32,130 nucleotides of DNA from Bacillota bacterium. Its GTDB lineage: Bacteria; Bacillota; SHA-98; Ch115. Below are positions 3,899 through 31,542 of this stretch, in pieces. The position numbers and the translations under genes were made by a program. Position 1 is the first letter of the stretch. Each line of letters starts with the position of its first letter. The stretch lies in NCBI GenBank assembly GCA_012842565.1, contig DUSO01000128.1, forward strand, positions 1 through 32,130. The letters are read 5' to 3'. The notes under the pieces are model-generated. The model searched no databases. It was not told where the DNA came from and was given only the letters and a program-made list of their open reading frames with translations.

Positions 3899-3974
3899 GG
3901 GGACGTGGCTCAGTTGGGAGAGCGCCGCATTCGCATTGCGGAGGTCGTGGGTTCGAATCCCATCGTCTCCACCA
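3899..3974 (+). tRNA. tRNA-Ala, anticodon CGC
   Basis: The gene is 76 bases long including an encoded CCA. All arms pair: the 7-bp acceptor GGGGACG/CGTCTCC, D arm GCTC/GAGC, anticodon stem CCGCA/TGCGG with loop TTCGCAT, and T arm GTGGG/CCCAT with loop TTCGAAT. The anticodon CGC reads GCG (alanine), and the acceptor carries the G3-U70 wobble pair that marks tRNA-Ala. Its 3' end faces the phage region, so it is the likely attachment site. It is intact on this side of the prophage. Confidence 0.96.
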
Positions 3975-22293: not shown

Positions 22294-23316
22294 TTAGGCC
22301 AGCGCCACTTCCTGGACGTTCTCGGTCAAGGCGGCATATACGCCACGCCAGAAATCGCCCACGATCTGGCTCTCCACCAGCCTGGTGATGTCGCCCATGG
22401 TGGCGTTGATCTGGAGGTCCTGTTTCACAAGTTCCTTGAAGCCGCGTTTCGGCCGGATCAGATAGCACTTGCCGGCAGCCACGCCCGAGTAGGTATAGGT
22501 CTTCTTTCCGACCTGCGTGCTCCAGCCATCGTAGTAGATTATGTCGGAAATGCCGCTCACAGGCGGATAGGTCGTGCCGTTCACCTGGCCGCCTCGCAGG
22601 GCTTGCTCGATGTCGGGCCTGTCCGCAGAAGCCGCGAGAAGCACTGTCGCTGGCCGCTTTGCCACAGCGGTATCCGCCAGGGCCTTGACCAAGGTCTTAT
22701 AAACCCGCAGCCACCTGGGATCTGCAACGTCACCCTGGAATGCCGTCTTGTTGCCCGCGGGATACACGAACGACAGAATCGGCCCCAGGTGCATGTCATT
22801 TAGCTTGGCGTTATACGCCTCGCCGAATGCCCGGTTGAGCAACTCGAGGTTGAAGACCTGATTAAAGATCTCCATCTCTTTGGTATACTCGAACCCAGCT
22901 GCGTAGCCCAGAATAGCAACCGTCGGACCCTGTTCGGCCTGGAGGCTACCGAACCTGACCTCCTCGCCCTCCAGGTGTTCGGTGAAGATCACGGTTCCAT
23001 ACTGTGCCCATTTCGCCTCGAGGAGCTTCGGGAAGTTCGCATCCTGGATGCGTTCGTAGATTGGGGTATACAGGATCGGTACCTGCTCCCGGCCGAGCTC
23101 CACGTCCAGAACGACCTTCTGCAGGAGTTCTTTCCTGGAGGCCTCCGAAGTCAACATTTCGCCGATAGGCTTCGAGAGTTCGAAAGCCTCCATCTCACCG
23201 TTGACTATCTTCTTGGTGACTTCGTAAGTCTTGCCGTTCAAAACGAAAGGCACCTTCTCTTCAAAGGTGCCCTGTCGCCGTGCGGCTTTCAGCTCTTCGA
23301 TCGACCATACCTTCAC
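22294..23316 (-). CDS. Major capsid protein
   Basis: The 340-residue protein occupies the capsid position after protease/scaffold and decoration genes, with a usual length for an HK97-fold subunit. The N-terminal arm (about 1-56) carries two Gly-Glu-Met motifs (residues 40-42 and 52-54) like those repeated in the protease/scaffold protein, so the arm may be removed at maturation. The C-terminal part (LIRPKRGFKELVKQDLQINATMGDITRLVESQIVGDFWRG) looks like the last strands and axial domain of HK97-like capsids. The GTG start follows GGAGGTGATATAG. Confidence 0.75.
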   Translation of the reverse strand: MKVWSIEELKAARRQGTFEEKVPFVLNGKTYEVTKKIVNGEMEAFELSKPIGEMLTSEASRKELLQKVVLDVELGREQVPILYTPIYERIQDANFPKLLEAKWAQYGTVIFTEHLEGEEVRFGSLQAEQGPTVAILGYAAGFEYTKEMEIFNQVFNLELLNRAFGEAYNAKLNDMHLGPILSFVYPAGNKTAFQGDVADPRWLRVYKTLVKALADTAVAKRPATVLLAASADRPDIEQALRGGQVNGTTYPPVSGISDIIYYDGWSTQVGKKTYTYSGVAAGKCYLIRPKRGFKELVKQDLQINATMGDITRLVESQIVGDFWRGVYAALTENVQEVALA

Positions 23317-23338
23317 CTATATCACCTCCACGGTTTCA

Positions 23339-23767
23339 TTAAGCATGAGCCTGAACCTGCGGCCCAAGAATGAACCAGATCACGTTGTTGGCATCCTTCG
23401 CCGCCGTTACCCGCCCGACTGGCCGGTTCTGCGGGTTGCCGCTGGCGTCATTGTTGGGGTTCGTGGTAAGCAGCTTATTTACCGCATCCCAATAAATCTT
23501 GTCACCTTTGTTGAATGCATCGGCTACGGTGATCTGGTCGGTTTCATACTCAGCCTGCTCGATGTTCAGGGTAATTTGTGCCGTCTGCCCAGCCCCGGTC
23601 GTCACCGACTGCATCGCAAACCCGAGAAATCCATCTAGGAGATAGAGCTTCCCGGCCTCGATGGTGGTGTTCTCGGGGACTGTAACCTTTACGCTCTTAC
23701 CGTCAGAAATCTTCGCCCTCGCCGCATTGTAAACGGTCGAGGGAACTGGCTGTCCAGTGTAAGCCAT
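23339..23767 (-). CDS. DUF2190-like capsid decoration protein
   Basis: The 142-residue protein has the DUF2190 look: an N-terminal KVTVPENTTIEAGKLYLLDGFLGFAM segment, DAFNKGDKIYWDAVNKLLTT in the middle, and a PVGRVTAAKDANNVIWFIL end. Members are small capsid-bound (cement or fibre) proteins. It lies between the scaffold and the capsid genes. AGGAGGGA precedes the ATG. Confidence 0.75.
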   Translation of the reverse strand: MAYTGQPVPSTVYNAARAKISDGKSVKVTVPENTTIEAGKLYLLDGFLGFAMQSVTTGAGQTAQITLNIEQAEYETDQITVADAFNKGDKIYWDAVNKLLTTNPNNDASGNPQNRPVGRVTAAKDANNVIWFILGPQVQAHA

Positions 23768-23781
23768 CTGCTAATCCCTCC

Positions 23782-24297
23782 TTACAGCGTGATACGCTTT
23801 ATCTTGAGACTTTGAGGAGCATCCTTGCCGCCGCTACCGCCGACGCCAGCTGGCTGGTCAACATGTAACTTGCTCAGAGCATCTTTTATGCTCTCATCTT
23901 TGAGCAGGTTGTCGATTTCGCCAGCAATTTGTTCTTTGGTGGCATTATCGGCAACGTGAAGCATTTTCTTGATCAGGCTTTGGGCCATCTCTCCGGTTAC
24001 CTTCTCCTTGAGGACCTCGCTAACTAGCTTCTCATGCTCTGCCTTGCGCTGAGCCTCAATCGCCTTCCGGGCCTCCTCTGCAACCTTGACAACGTCCATC
24101 TCGCCGGTGACCCCGAGGACCTGCTTGACCTTAGCCATAGTCTCCATCGAATTTTCTGCCACTTTCAGCCAGTCAGGAGCGATTTCCTTGGCTACGTCCT
24201 GCACTCTCCATCCCATCTCGCCCACCACCTGGCCAAGGGTAACCTCTCTACTAGCCAGCATGGTCTTTAGCTGTGCAACAAGTTCCTTCCAAGTCAT
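23782..24297 (-). CDS. Nested scaffold protein from an internal in-frame start
   Basis: Inside the protease gene and in the same frame, an ATG at 24297 (residue 314, MTWKELVAQLK) is preceded by AGGAGGTG at 24309-24316, 11 bases away. It falls exactly at the boundary between the protease and the helical domain, after the ISGGGQKP linker. Starting here yields 171 residues of pure scaffold, as in lambda C/Nu3-type nested genes. Confidence 0.55.
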   Translation of the reverse strand: MTWKELVAQLKTMLASREVTLGQVVGEMGWRVQDVAKEIAPDWLKVAENSMETMAKVKQVLGVTGEMDVVKVAEEARKAIEAQRKAEHEKLVSEVLKEKVTGEMAQSLIKKMLHVADNATKEQIAGEIDNLLKDESIKDALSKLHVDQPAGVGGSGGKDAPQSLKIKRITL

Positions 24298-25236
24298 AGG
24301 CTTCTGTCCACCTCCTGAAATGATTTCGTCCATCTCGCCGACCGCGACGACCGCCGTCGGCATCCCTGCACGCCCTAGCGGGGTCCAATCGATACTAAGG
24401 GGCTGATAGTCTACAACCTGCGTTTCCCCGCCGACCTGCGCTAGCTTCGGAATTCCAAAGATACTTACCGTCCGAACTGTCTTGGCCTTAATCCATCGCT
24501 TGAGATCCGATGCTGCCTTGTCGATCACACCCCTGAAATATGCCTTGCCGTCCTTCCAGAGGGCTCCTACCCAGTGAGTAACCGGAATCGGGAATTGATG
24601 ATCCACATCCTCGGGTTTTTGGTGGCCAAGGAATCCAGGGAGCCCCTGACTCATTACCTCTCCGACAATCCTTTGCAAGGCCTGGGGAGTGTAGTTCCAT
24701 CCACGCTTGCTCCGGCCAGCAGGAATCTCAACGACTACCTCCATGGGTTCGGAGTCTCCAGCCTTGAGTGCGGCTAAGTCTGCCCAGGGTGCGACCGGCA
24801 CATCCTCCACCCGCATTTCGCCGGACACCACAGCCATAACTGCCGACATCTCGCCGGCCAGGCTCTCCGGTGCTGGCATTTCGAGCTCCCGGTAGTGTCT
24901 GAGCAGGTGTCGCCGGGCCTGGGCCTTCTGCTCCGGTGTCAGGTCCGGCTCACTACGGGCCCCCGCGAGGGCGGCGGCTGCCGCGATTAGACCAGATCGA
25001 TTCAAAACTACGGTCCCATCATCGTGAACTTCGTGGTGAGGGCCCCAGCATGCTGCCTGTGTCAAGTCCTTGTTGATCTCGGTCTTAACTACCGCATATG
25101 TTTCACGGATAGCCTCAGCTACCCCGGAAGCACCCTCTTCCAGGGCTTGCTTGAATATCTGCCATATGCGGCTTTTGTCTACATCTCCCCATGCCCTATT
25201 GCTCACCGAATCGCTAATCTTAAATGCCTTAGGCAC
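23782..25236 (-). CDS. Prohead protease fused to scaffold (XkdF-like)
   Basis: The 484-residue protein has an N-terminal helical domain (about 1-120), a serine protease domain (about 165-300) and a helical scaffold domain (about 314-450). The protease part shows LPGFLGHQKPED with probable catalytic H205, and VRTVSIFGIPKL with probable nucleophile S258, as in XkdF-like head-maturation proteases. Gly-Glu-Met occurs at residues 128, 139, 300, 339, 378 and 415, with GEV at 192 and GEI at 439; most lie outside the catalytic core and are candidate cleavage sites. The GTG start follows AAGGAGGTG. An internal start at 24297 would give the scaffold alone. Confidence 0.8.
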   Translation of the reverse strand: MPKAFKISDSVSNRAWGDVDKSRIWQIFKQALEEGASGVAEAIRETYAVVKTEINKDLTQAACWGPHHEVHDDGTVVLNRSGLIAAAAALAGARSEPDLTPEQKAQARRHLLRHYRELEMPAPESLAGEMSAVMAVVSGEMRVEDVPVAPWADLAALKAGDSEPMEVVVEIPAGRSKRGWNYTPQALQRIVGEVMSQGLPGFLGHQKPEDVDHQFPIPVTHWVGALWKDGKAYFRGVIDKAASDLKRWIKAKTVRTVSIFGIPKLAQVGGETQVVDYQPLSIDWTPLGRAGMPTAVVAVGEMDEIISGGGQKPMTWKELVAQLKTMLASREVTLGQVVGEMGWRVQDVAKEIAPDWLKVAENSMETMAKVKQVLGVTGEMDVVKVAEEARKAIEAQRKAEHEKLVSEVLKEKVTGEMAQSLIKKMLHVADNATKEQIAGEIDNLLKDESIKDALSKLHVDQPAGVGGSGGKDAPQSLKIKRITL

Positions 25237-26958: not shown

Positions 26959-28494
26959 TTACTCACCCGCATTCCCGAGAGCCTGGTCGATGAGCTTCTG
27001 TTCTGTCTCGGTCAATTCGCCATCCTCCAGGCGAGCCATTAGGATCTTGGTTTTGATTATCCGCTCCCGCTCCCCAGGGATCTCAGGATCATCGGATAAG
27101 AAATCGTTCATGGTCTCGATATATTGACTGAGGAACTGGACGGCCGCGTCCTGGCTGATCAAAGCATTCTGCAGCGCATTGACCAGTGCATTTACGATAC
27201 GCTCCAGGGTTTCAGCCACGTCTTTTTCATCCCGTGGATCAACCTCGTCCCATTCCAGGGTCGTAGCATAGGTTGAAAATTTCCGCCCTTCAGCCTGTGC
27301 CGTCATGGCAAGCACGATCCGGGCGAGCTTCTGCCAGGCTTCGGTGAAGTGCTCCCGCTTCCTCGCGATCCTCCGGACCAGGATCGGCATCTGCTCTTTG
27401 ACGGAGCTAAGCGAACTCGGAGTATGAACCCCGAACGCAAACTCAGGCGTCTCGCTCGTATCCACGATGCAGTAGAAAAGCAGTTTCAGCAATGGCTCTG
27501 TGGACCCGATCGCACTCTGAACTTCGATGAACTCCGCATCCTCCTCATCAAGGAAGATCAAGAGCTCATGGCCATCAAGGTTAATAGTCCCGCCCTCTTC
27601 GATAAACTTTTTCGGGTCCGTGATACCGAAGTTGTTGGCAAGGAATCTCGCAACATCCTTGAGCTTGAGCTTCAACCTTGGGGTATTGTGAAGACGCGCC
27701 CCCTGGATCCCGGAAAGTAAAACGTCGTGATACGCCTTCAGGAACGGCTCGATGGCCTCCAGGTCTGACCGGCCAAATTCCTCCGTCTCGTCTCCCTCAT
27801 TGCGGAAATGCACAATAGGAATGAAGCCCCATGGGTTGCGCTCCTCCCCTGGCTGTATATCTGGCGGGATATCGCCATCCACCTGGATGAGCCTGCGCTC
27901 CCTGCTGATCCGCTGAGTAATGACCGCTCGACGCCTATTTCCTTTCTCGTCCTCCCAGATATGCTCTGATTTTAACACATACTCCTGGACCGACCGGGTC
28001 AGCGGATGCCGGATAATCTGGACTACCTGCTCTGGGGGAATGATGTTGTATACCAACCGAGTCTTGGCCTCGGGATATAGCGCCTTGTCTTCAGTCTCCT
28101 CCCGCGTCACCCAGACGAAGCAGTCCCCATCTCGCAGTGCATTCCTGTGCGTCTGCTGCATCCGGGAAACGTTCGCCCCGAAAAAGTCATCCAACACTGC
28201 CTGCGCGTCCTCATCCTCAGAGCGAAACCGCGGAACACCCATAAAGCCCACTGTGGTATTGATTACAGGTTTCGCGAAGCCCGCGCCCAATTTATACGCA
28301 TCGTCGATGTTCTCGTATAGCGCCCTGGCCTTCGCATAATCCACCCGGCTCGAGTCGAGCCGGTATGGCTTCGCATAAGTGGTGCCCACGATACGCCAGC
28401 CGAGGGAGCTGAATGCATCCCTGAGCTTCGATATTTCGCCAACGGCCCACCGGAGCCAGCGGGAGCTACTGCGCTTTATCTTCGCCATCCTCAT
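26959..28494 (-). CDS. Portal protein (SPP1 gp6-like)
   Basis: The protein has about 511 residues from the ATG at 28494; starts at 28515 and 28488 are also possible, none with a strong ribosome binding site. The portal forms the twelve-part ring through which DNA enters the head. Recognisable parts are KPVINTTVGFMGVPRF near the N-terminus, a central wing (NPWGFIPIVHFRNEGDETEEFGRSDLE) and ETPEFAFGVHTPSSLSSVKEQM before the long C-terminal helices. It lies between terminase and the minor head protein and overlaps the end of the HExxH gene. Confidence 0.88.
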   Translation of the reverse strand: MRMAKIKRSSSRWLRWAVGEISKLRDAFSSLGWRIVGTTYAKPYRLDSSRVDYAKARALYENIDDAYKLGAGFAKPVINTTVGFMGVPRFRSEDEDAQAVLDDFFGANVSRMQQTHRNALRDGDCFVWVTREETEDKALYPEAKTRLVYNIIPPEQVVQIIRHPLTRSVQEYVLKSEHIWEDEKGNRRRAVITQRISRERRLIQVDGDIPPDIQPGEERNPWGFIPIVHFRNEGDETEEFGRSDLEAIEPFLKAYHDVLLSGIQGARLHNTPRLKLKLKDVARFLANNFGITDPKKFIEEGGTINLDGHELLIFLDEEDAEFIEVQSAIGSTEPLLKLLFYCIVDTSETPEFAFGVHTPSSLSSVKEQMPILVRRIARKREHFTEAWQKLARIVLAMTAQAEGRKFSTYATTLEWDEVDPRDEKDVAETLERIVNALVNALQNALISQDAAVQFLSQYIETMNDFLSDDPEIPGERERIIKTKILMARLEDGELTETEQKLIDQALGNAGE

Positions 28495-28807
28495 CACCGC
28501 CCGCGAGGAGACCATTCTCAGTCAAAAACTCGTATAACCCTGTGCCCAAAACCTCAATAATCGTCTCTATTTTCACGGCCTGGTCTGTATCTCCATAGCC
28601 GGCAACCTCCAAGATGCCATGTATGGCCTCATGCAGGAATGCCGCACCTCTTCGCTCTTCGGATGGCGCAGGTCCTAGCATAATCTCCTGCCTCGTGTAG
28701 CTTATCTCGCCCCATAAGAGGTTTCCGTTATCATCCCTATATTCTTCCTGCCTTTGCTTGACGCGGTATATATACGGCCCGATCTTGACCTTATCCGGTA
28801 TTCGCAT
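28466..28807 (-). CDS. Small HExxH metallopeptidase-like phage protein
   Basis: The 113-residue protein has a zinc-peptidase motif, FLHEAIHGIL, with H59, E60 and H63, and a downstream helix (VKIETIIEVLG) with Glu residues that could be the third ligand. Small HExxH proteins of this kind are common in phages of Bacillota, but their targets are unknown. TAGGAGG, containing the TAG stop of the terminase gene, precedes the ATG. Its 3' end overlaps the portal gene. Confidence 0.75.
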   Translation of the reverse strand: MRIPDKVKIGPYIYRVKQRQEEYRDDNGNLLWGEISYTRQEIMLGPAPSEERRGAAFLHEAIHGILEVAGYGDTDQAVKIETIIEVLGTGLYEFLTENGLLAGGDEDGEDKAQ

Positions 28808-30963: not shown

Positions 30964-31542
30964 TCACGATACTATAATACCACGATCTTCGCCCGCCGGT
31001 GCGTTGAAATTGCGAGGGGGCTTCTTCCCCAACCACTCGGCCATCTGCCTCACTATGCGATTTCTCATATTCCTGACCCGCCACTCGCTGCAGTGAAGCA
31101 TATCGGCGATCTGGTAGTTGCTCCGGTGGTAGACATACCTTTGCTCCGTCAACCTGCGCTCCTCAACCGTCAGCCTGCTCATAGCCGCCTCAATCGGCGC
31201 TATCCACTCCTGGAGTTTATGCAACCTATACTGGATGCTGGCAAGCCTCTTATGCTTTTCCAGCATCTCTTTGGTTATAGCGTCCACTTGCCTCTCATAT
31301 TCCTCCATCAATGCGGCATAGTCGAGGTCACCACCCCGCAAGTGACCAGGGACAAGTCCGTATTTTGCCGTCAATCCTGGGATGCGCTTGATCTCCTGGA
31401 GCTTAAGGTCAAGCCTCTTAAGCGCAGCAAGGAGTGCCTCCTCCTTTGCCCGCAATCGCTCAATACGTCCCTTTGTGCGCCAGTAAGCAGCGATCAGTCT
31501 TTCGGTTTCGGGGAACCAAGGTTCCCTAATCCTCAAGCCCAT
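30964..31542 (-). CDS. Phage late transcription regulator, sigma-region-4/ArpU-like
   Basis: The 192-residue protein has helical, partly coiled-coil N-terminal two thirds. The C-terminal helix-turn-helix (about residues 124-168: LTVEERRLTEQRYVYHRSNYQIADML…WRVRNMRNRIV) is of the sigma-70 region 4 type. Such proteins sit just before the terminase genes in phages of Bacillota and activate late transcription. Its start overlaps the previous gene, with AGGTGAG as ribosome binding site. A terminator and a -10 box follow it. Confidence 0.75.
   Translation of the reverse strand: MGLRIREPWFPETERLIAAYWRTKGRIERLRAKEEALLAALKRLDLKLQEIKRIPGLTAKYGLVPGHLRGGDLDYAALMEEYERQVDAITKEMLEKHKRLASIQYRLHKLQEWIAPIEAAMSRLTVEERRLTEQRYVYHRSNYQIADMLHCSEWRVRNMRNRIVRQMAEWLGKKPPRNFNAPAGEDRGIIVS

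Follow-up and report, generated by a model that had tools for sequence, protein, structure and literature searches.

A probable Gly-Glu/Met-Ile cleavage code for head maturation and a scaffold-fused assemblin-type protease in a Firmicute prophage

The DNA analysed here, referred to as the window (32,130 nucleotides; positions 1 to 32,130 of contig DUSO01000128.1, assembly GCA_012842565.1), is one contig from a Bacillota genome of 2.5 Mb and carries a prophage whose protease/scaffold fusion protein and major capsid protein (MCP) share a recurrent Gly-Glu-Met (GEM) tripeptide. An earlier note on this DNA had proposed GEM as a head-maturation cleavage code, and conservation amongst relatives, enrichment in the precursor proteins, an assemblin fold, an invariant candidate triad, and a short chain in a homologous capsid structure all agree with that proposal. 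Based on the sequences and structural models, it is highly probable that GE/[Met/Ile/Leu] (the slash denotes the proposed cut) marks the positions at which the fused assemblin-fold protease would cleave the scaffold, capsid, and portal precursors. Taken as a whole, this would probably be an undescribed system, consisting of a Gly-Glu/Met-Ile code, a scaffold-fused assemblin-type protease, three precursors, and a nested scaffold gene, that is widespread amongst small Firmicute phages.

The protease/scaffold fusion (484 amino acids [aa]; 23782..25236, minus strand) is composed of an N-terminal module (residues 1-120), a protease domain (~145-300), and a helical scaffold (~315-484), and possesses GEM at residues 128, 139, 300, 339, 378, and 415, GEV at 192, and GEI at 439. 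The MCP (340 aa; 22294..23316, minus strand) possesses NGEM at 40-42 and IGEM at 52-54, and all of these positions are as the earlier note had given them. Residue shuffles of the scaffold protein yielded a mean of 0.11 GEM (maximum, 3 in 20,000) compared to six observed, while shuffles of the MCP yielded a mean of 0.03 compared to two observed (P = 3e-4). The background count suggested in the earlier note returned 0 GEM in the other 30 window open reading frames (ORFs) examined (about 8,740 aa), and the recurrence of GEM in the scaffold and the capsid arm is not due to chance. GEV192 had been included in the same motif series, but lies within the folded protease domain and lacks conservation (e.g., IVKHV or IVDAV in relatives), and was rejected as a cleavage site. 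One further site, absent from that series, occurs at the portal N-terminus (AVGEI, residues 24-28).

Homologues were collected from viral contigs, genomes, and phage records, resulting in 135 distinct MCPs (133 readable), 136 distinct protease/scaffolds, and 88 readable portals, with column conservation determined from 39 aligned sequences. These sequences share kinship and the counts are thus not independent, such that more weight is placed on how sites turn over and on how genes differ than on the raw numbers. GE followed by Met or Ile (GE[MI]) was observed 988 times in the scaffold homologues compared to 45.6 expected (21.7x; ~7 in each of 136 proteins), 271 times in the MCP homologues (27.0 expected; 10.1x), and 94 times in the portal homologues (23.2 expected; 4.0x). 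The minor head homologues had 13 occurrences (22.3 expected; 0.6x), and the connector and tail genes examined had observed/expected ratios of 0 to 2.5. The capsid decoration protein (23339..23767, minus strand; PF09956, phrog_122, homologous to phiCD508 gp48) provided a motif-free negative control, with 0 GE[MI] in 134 decoration homologues compared to 7.4 expected.

The signal is equally distinct at the level of individual residues. GEM was the tripeptide most shared between the scaffold and the MCP arm in 123 of 124 genomes, and across the 136 distinct protease/scaffolds X-E-M reads G-E-M in 703/825 cases. In the same proteins the residue after GE is Met (48%) or Ile (18%) far more often than after other Glu (3% and 7%, respectively), and the flanking logo consists of Ile/Val at P4, Ala/Ser/Val/Thr at P3, Gly at P2, Glu at P1, and Met or Ile at P1'. 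The alignment of homologues, which had been named as a check on the proposal, revealed GE[MI] kept in relatives at domain and helix borders. Sites downstream of the protease occupy 23 different alignment columns, yet most proteins hold four to six, suggesting that the number of sites is maintained and not merely inherited as a fixed block. Co-variation of P1' between MCP and scaffold was set aside as a line of evidence, as one lineage with GEL in its MCP (L101) also has GEL in the scaffold and two others (L084 and L091) do not, leaving too few independent events. No relatives were found that pair this protease with an unrelated capsid, which would have been an independent test; the nine loci without a capsid match were contig ends or short.

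AlphaFold 2 (AF2) models based on 39-row alignments (overall predicted TM-score of the protease/scaffold, 0.38, due to domain flexibility) placed the candidate sites relative to the domains. The N-terminal module (1-120) is followed by a low-confidence linker (124-140) that contains GEM128 and most of GEM139, a beta-rich domain (~145-300), and a second low-confidence linker (302-318) that starts just past GEM300. The candidate site G128-E129/M130 (24847..24855, minus strand, as for all sites below), in the linker preceding the protease, has GE[MI] in some homologues, though not all. At the N-border of the protease domain, G139-E140/M141 (24814..24822) is conserved across the aligned homologues (G, 90%; E, 92%; M, 90%), and at the C-border, G300-E301/M302 (24331..24339) has an invariant E301 (G300, 97%; M302, 87%). 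The fragment between the two protease-flanking sites is 161-165 aa in 97/130 proteins, close to the 164-166 aa of the T4 gp21 chains in 5jbl. Within the scaffold, the predicted helices (316-458) have sites at or near the breaks at 339-343, 373-377, and 412-416, consisting of G339-E340/M341 (24214..24222; E, 82%; low-confidence 339-343), G378-E379/M380 between helices 354-374 and 382-412 (24097..24105; E, 72%), and G415-E416/M417 between helices 382-412 and 416-425 (23986..23994; E, 79%). The last candidate site, G439-E440/I441 (23914..23922; E, 87%), is located near the scaffold C-terminus. In one relative (L092), residues 388-465 of the protease/scaffold appear to be a duplicated helical scaffold module with each copy beginning GEM or GEL, which suggests that scaffold length may grow by GE-delimited modules.

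The protease sequence has no match to a Pfam or NCBIfam protease family, and phrog_3219 has no assigned function. In Foldseek searches with the model, herpesvirus proteases lead the matches to solved structures (KSHV, E 7e-4, probability 1.00), and T4 gp21 (5jbl) was matched with a probability of 1.00 (TM-score 0.53 on the target), and residues ~145-300 are predicted to adopt the assemblin beta-barrel fold. All of the leading PDB matches were herpesvirus proteases and T4 gp21, and a ClpP/SppA-like protease as in lambda C was rejected. The candidate catalytic residues, His205 (LGHQ; 24622..24624), Ser258 (VSIFG; 24463..24465), and Asp283 (SIDW; 24388..24390), all on the minus strand, are invariant in 39 homologues, and the 25 residues that separate Ser258 and Asp283 equal the S153-D178 spacing given for SPN3US gp245 (PMC5694885).

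In the MCP, site 1, G40-E41/M42 (23191..23199), lies in the linker following an N-terminal mini-domain and site 2, G52-E53/M54, lies 12 residues downstream (23155..23163). GEM occurs at site 1 in 131/133 readable distinct MCPs, and the two MCPs without it (L026 and L054) have GEM 12 residues upstream instead. At site 2, GE is invariant, with GEM in 114/133 and GEL in 19/133, such that P1' is M or L in 133/133. Within residues 1-65, R13, K35, G40, P50, G52, E53, and M54 are invariant in the 39 aligned sequences, while neighbouring positions 44-49 are variable. The N-terminal 39 residues are predicted to be a compact and confident mini-domain; the putative propeptide segment 1-39 (window 23200-23316) is modelled as a helix and beta-hairpin, and the extra GEM copies in the MCPs of relatives occur at the hairpin turn, 12 residues ahead of site 1.

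The MCP is homologous over its whole length to gp49 of phiCD508 (phmmer E 6e-128; also phrog_3116 and PF25209), and its model matched 9gay_A (Foldseek E 6e-29) with further matches to HK97, identifying an HK97 fold and a phiCD508-like capsid family. MCP G52-E53-M54 corresponds to gp49 G54-E55-M56, so that the gp49 chain would be 290 residues starting at M56 (site 2) and 302 residues starting at site 1. The longest chain in the Foldseek library (9gay_A) has 287 modelled residues of the 345 deposited, leaving 58 unmodelled (as calculated from chain length and not from residue numbers). The earlier note had left the mature capsid to start at either Met42 or Met54; the invariance of site 2 and the 287 compared to 290 residues favour Met54, with the mature MCP most likely beginning there and not at Met42. 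Removal of the propeptide is a likely reason for the ~58 residues missing from the phiCD508 capsid model. No literature on N-terminal sequencing of this phiCD508-like capsid family was found.

Two alternatives concern these MCP sites directly. That the capsid is cut only at site 1, or that cuts fall after Met rather than before it, is unlikely. Site 1 is located in a predicted coil (39-50) and is nearly universal, while site 2 is at a predicted helix start, as a cut at Met42 alone would have it, but it is site 1 that has been lost in two MCPs while GE at site 2 is invariant, and the length of the phiCD508 model is closer to that expected from site 2 than from site 1. A cut after Met is at odds with a P1' residue that varies (M/I/L/V) next to a constant Glu, as for the Glu-cutting enzymes of T4, phiKZ, and SPN3US. 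Alternatively, the mature capsid might start at Met42 or Met54 through translation initiation, as Met occupies P1' of both sites and the neighbouring scaffold gene seems to use an internal start. This carries next to no probability and was rejected, with a Shine-Dalgarno (SD) core upstream of 0/256 MCP GEM methionines compared to 81/130 presumed true starts, and with the N-terminal mini-domain, including the invariant R13 and K35, conserved and predicted at high confidence.

The portal protein (26959..28515, minus strand; PF05133, phrog_64) matches phiCD508 gp45 (E 2.5e-179) and has the predicted site G26-E27/I28 (AVGEI; 28432..28440, minus strand). The aligned N-terminal site is GE[MI] in 80/88 and GE in 86/88 readable portals, while the surrounding N-terminus is otherwise variable in length and sequence, and much of the portal GE[MI] excess is this one site. 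In phiCD27, the motifs are likewise present in scaffold, MCP, and portal. From these sequence patterns, the portal is likely a third substrate, for which SPN3US offers a precedent of a portal cut by such a protease (PMC5694885).

Several observations weigh against cleavage at these sites. Some relatives have few sites (L023 has 2 GEM and 1 GEI) and some lack the N-terminal site preceding the protease, E440 sits inside a predicted helix (434-446), and P3 of the MCP sites is N or I where most scaffold sites have A/S/V/T. The paper in which the phiCD508 capsid structure was solved (PMC11948020) states that its proteins were built to full length or nearly so and mentions neither cleavage nor proteolytic maturation, and the residues unmodelled in 9gay could be disordered rather than removed, though a compact and confidently predicted mini-domain makes their absence easier to explain by removal. 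GEM might instead be a structural motif, a helix N-cap or turn used in folding or assembly, with nothing cut. In the AF2 models, several sites coincide with the start of a helix (51-56 in the MCP; 345, 382, and 416 in the scaffold) and the spacing of 12 residues between the MCP sites is kept exactly, as such a motif might require. This explanation is nonetheless quite improbable, as it has to account for one code in three unrelated settings (the MCP arm linker, the portal N-terminus, and the scaffold), for shifting positions alongside a mostly steady count of four to six per protein, for sites 161-165 aa apart that bracket the protease domain, for decoration and minor head proteins without the motif, and for the ~58 residues of a homologous MCP missing from the virion model.

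Under the cleavage reading, a procapsid would be built around the 484-aa protease-scaffold fusion and, probably, a scaffold-only product starting at codon 314. Assembly would activate the assemblin-fold serine protease domain (~141-301), which would cut after Glu in [small or aliphatic]-Gly-Glu/[Met/Ile/Leu] and release itself at E140 and E301. Cuts at E340, E379, E416, and E440 would reduce the scaffold to peptides of 24-44 residues, small enough to exit, while a 53-residue N-terminal propeptide would be removed from the MCP between E53 and M54, with E41/M42 cut first or serving as a back-up, and ~27 residues would be trimmed off the portal between E27 and I28. Cleavage itself, the Glu-Met bond as its position, the order of the cuts, and the use of the nested start are what we infer from the patterns above. 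Multiple sites inside propeptides occur in phiKZ and SPN3US, where they are thought to aid clearance.

As judged from its coding sequence, the scaffold region is probably also translated on its own, as a nested protein. An internal SD-like sequence, GGAGGTGGA (24307..24315, minus strand), encodes Gly308-310 with the codons GGA GGT GGA and is followed by the in-frame ATG of codon 314, which would open a predicted scaffold-only ORF of 171 aa (23782..24297, minus strand) with a conserved SD-ATG arrangement. The product, residues 314-484, would be pure scaffold with four candidate sites. Of the two Gly codons in the GG-x(2-6)-M linker, which 79 homologues possess, the first is written as GGA by 77 (against a background of 26%) and the second as GGT by 50 (against 25%), and in L039 GGGAGG is retained though the residues become R-G-R. 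SD six-mers occur upstream of 61/315 ATGs in the nested-start stretch compared to 54/1,546 elsewhere in the protease/scaffold genes, and upstream of 7/523 ATGs in the MCP genes. The spacing of 11 from GGAGGTG to the ATG in the window is on the long side. In lambda C/Nu3 and herpesvirus UL26/UL26.5, the scaffold is likewise encoded in frame by the 3' portion of the protease gene and has a start of its own, though lambda C is a ClpP/SppA-like protease and not an assemblin, and herpesviruses have a separate scaffold transcript and cut at Ala-Ser bonds.

As the earlier note had stated, the prohead proteases of T4 and phiKZ cut after Glu, and the literature agrees and adds SPN3US. The predicted fold, the proposed P1 Glu, and the presumed substrates would group the system in its working with T4 gp21 and the giant-phage proteases. 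With T4 gp21 it shares the predicted assemblin fold and the Ser-His-Asp candidate triad, and would share Glu at P1, and the cutting of the T4 scaffold into many pieces together with removal of an N-terminal capsid propeptide (PMC9026906) is proposed likewise here. T4 differs in its L/I-X-E code, a separate scaffold protein (gp22), and an uncut portal (gp20) (PMC5694885), whereas the proposed system in the window has Gly at P2, Met or Ile at P1', a protease fused to the scaffold, and a site in the portal. A T4-type L/I-X-E motif was rejected for the scaffold sites, most of which have A, S, V, or T at P3, with I/V at P4 and G at P2. SPN3US gp245 and phiKZ gp175 likewise cut after Glu in a short code (A-X-E and S/A-X-E, respectively), and gp245 processes the MCP, the portal, and itself. 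These are giant phages with P3-based codes and, in SPN3US, a preference for Ser at P1', and the available accounts describe no fused scaffold for either, while the family in the window has Gly at P2, Met/Ile at P1', and small genomes (phiCD508, T = 7). The C. difficile myophages phiCD508 and phiCD27 share homologous MCP, decoration, and portal proteins with the window phage, and phiCD27 also a homologous protease.

The prophage is on the minus strand, with the host genes greA and lysS at the left end of the window and a tRNA-Ala (CGC) at 3899-3974, between lysS and the prophage, as a possible attachment site. In transcription order, the head genes on the minus strand are large terminase, portal, minor head protein, protease/scaffold, decoration, and MCP, and phiCD27 has an identical order from portal to capsid. 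PMC11948020 names phiCD508 gp46 as scaffold and gp47 as protease; judged by synteny, their counterparts in phiCD27 would make gp46 a minor head protein and gp47 a protease-scaffold fusion. A small ORF upstream of the packaging genes (30964-31542) has similarity to sigma-70 region 4 and is a possible late-gene regulator. The fusion matches phrog_3219 (E 6e-141) from residue 128 onwards, and its N-terminal module (1-130) has no match in Pfam or PHROG. Residues 1-120 (24877-25236) form a module that is 64% identical in the scaffold protein of Geobacillus phage GBK1 (L063), which beyond this module is different and without GEM, and the module is missing from many relatives of the window protease/scaffold, so it seems to be exchangeable.

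With these results, phrog_3219, phrog_3116, and the matching portals would become parts of one defined maturation system for which predictions exist at the level of single residues. They would add a further Glu-specific code beside those of T4 (L/I-X-E) and the phiKZ-like phages (S/A-X-E), found in phages whose small size suits simple genetics, and substrates and mature ends of metagenomic phages could be predicted from it. If true, the system would be a compact equivalent of those that mature herpesvirus (UL26/UL26.5) and T4 (gp21/gp22) heads, and phages of the phiCD508 type would undergo a proteolytic maturation that is unreported in the published phiCD508 structure.

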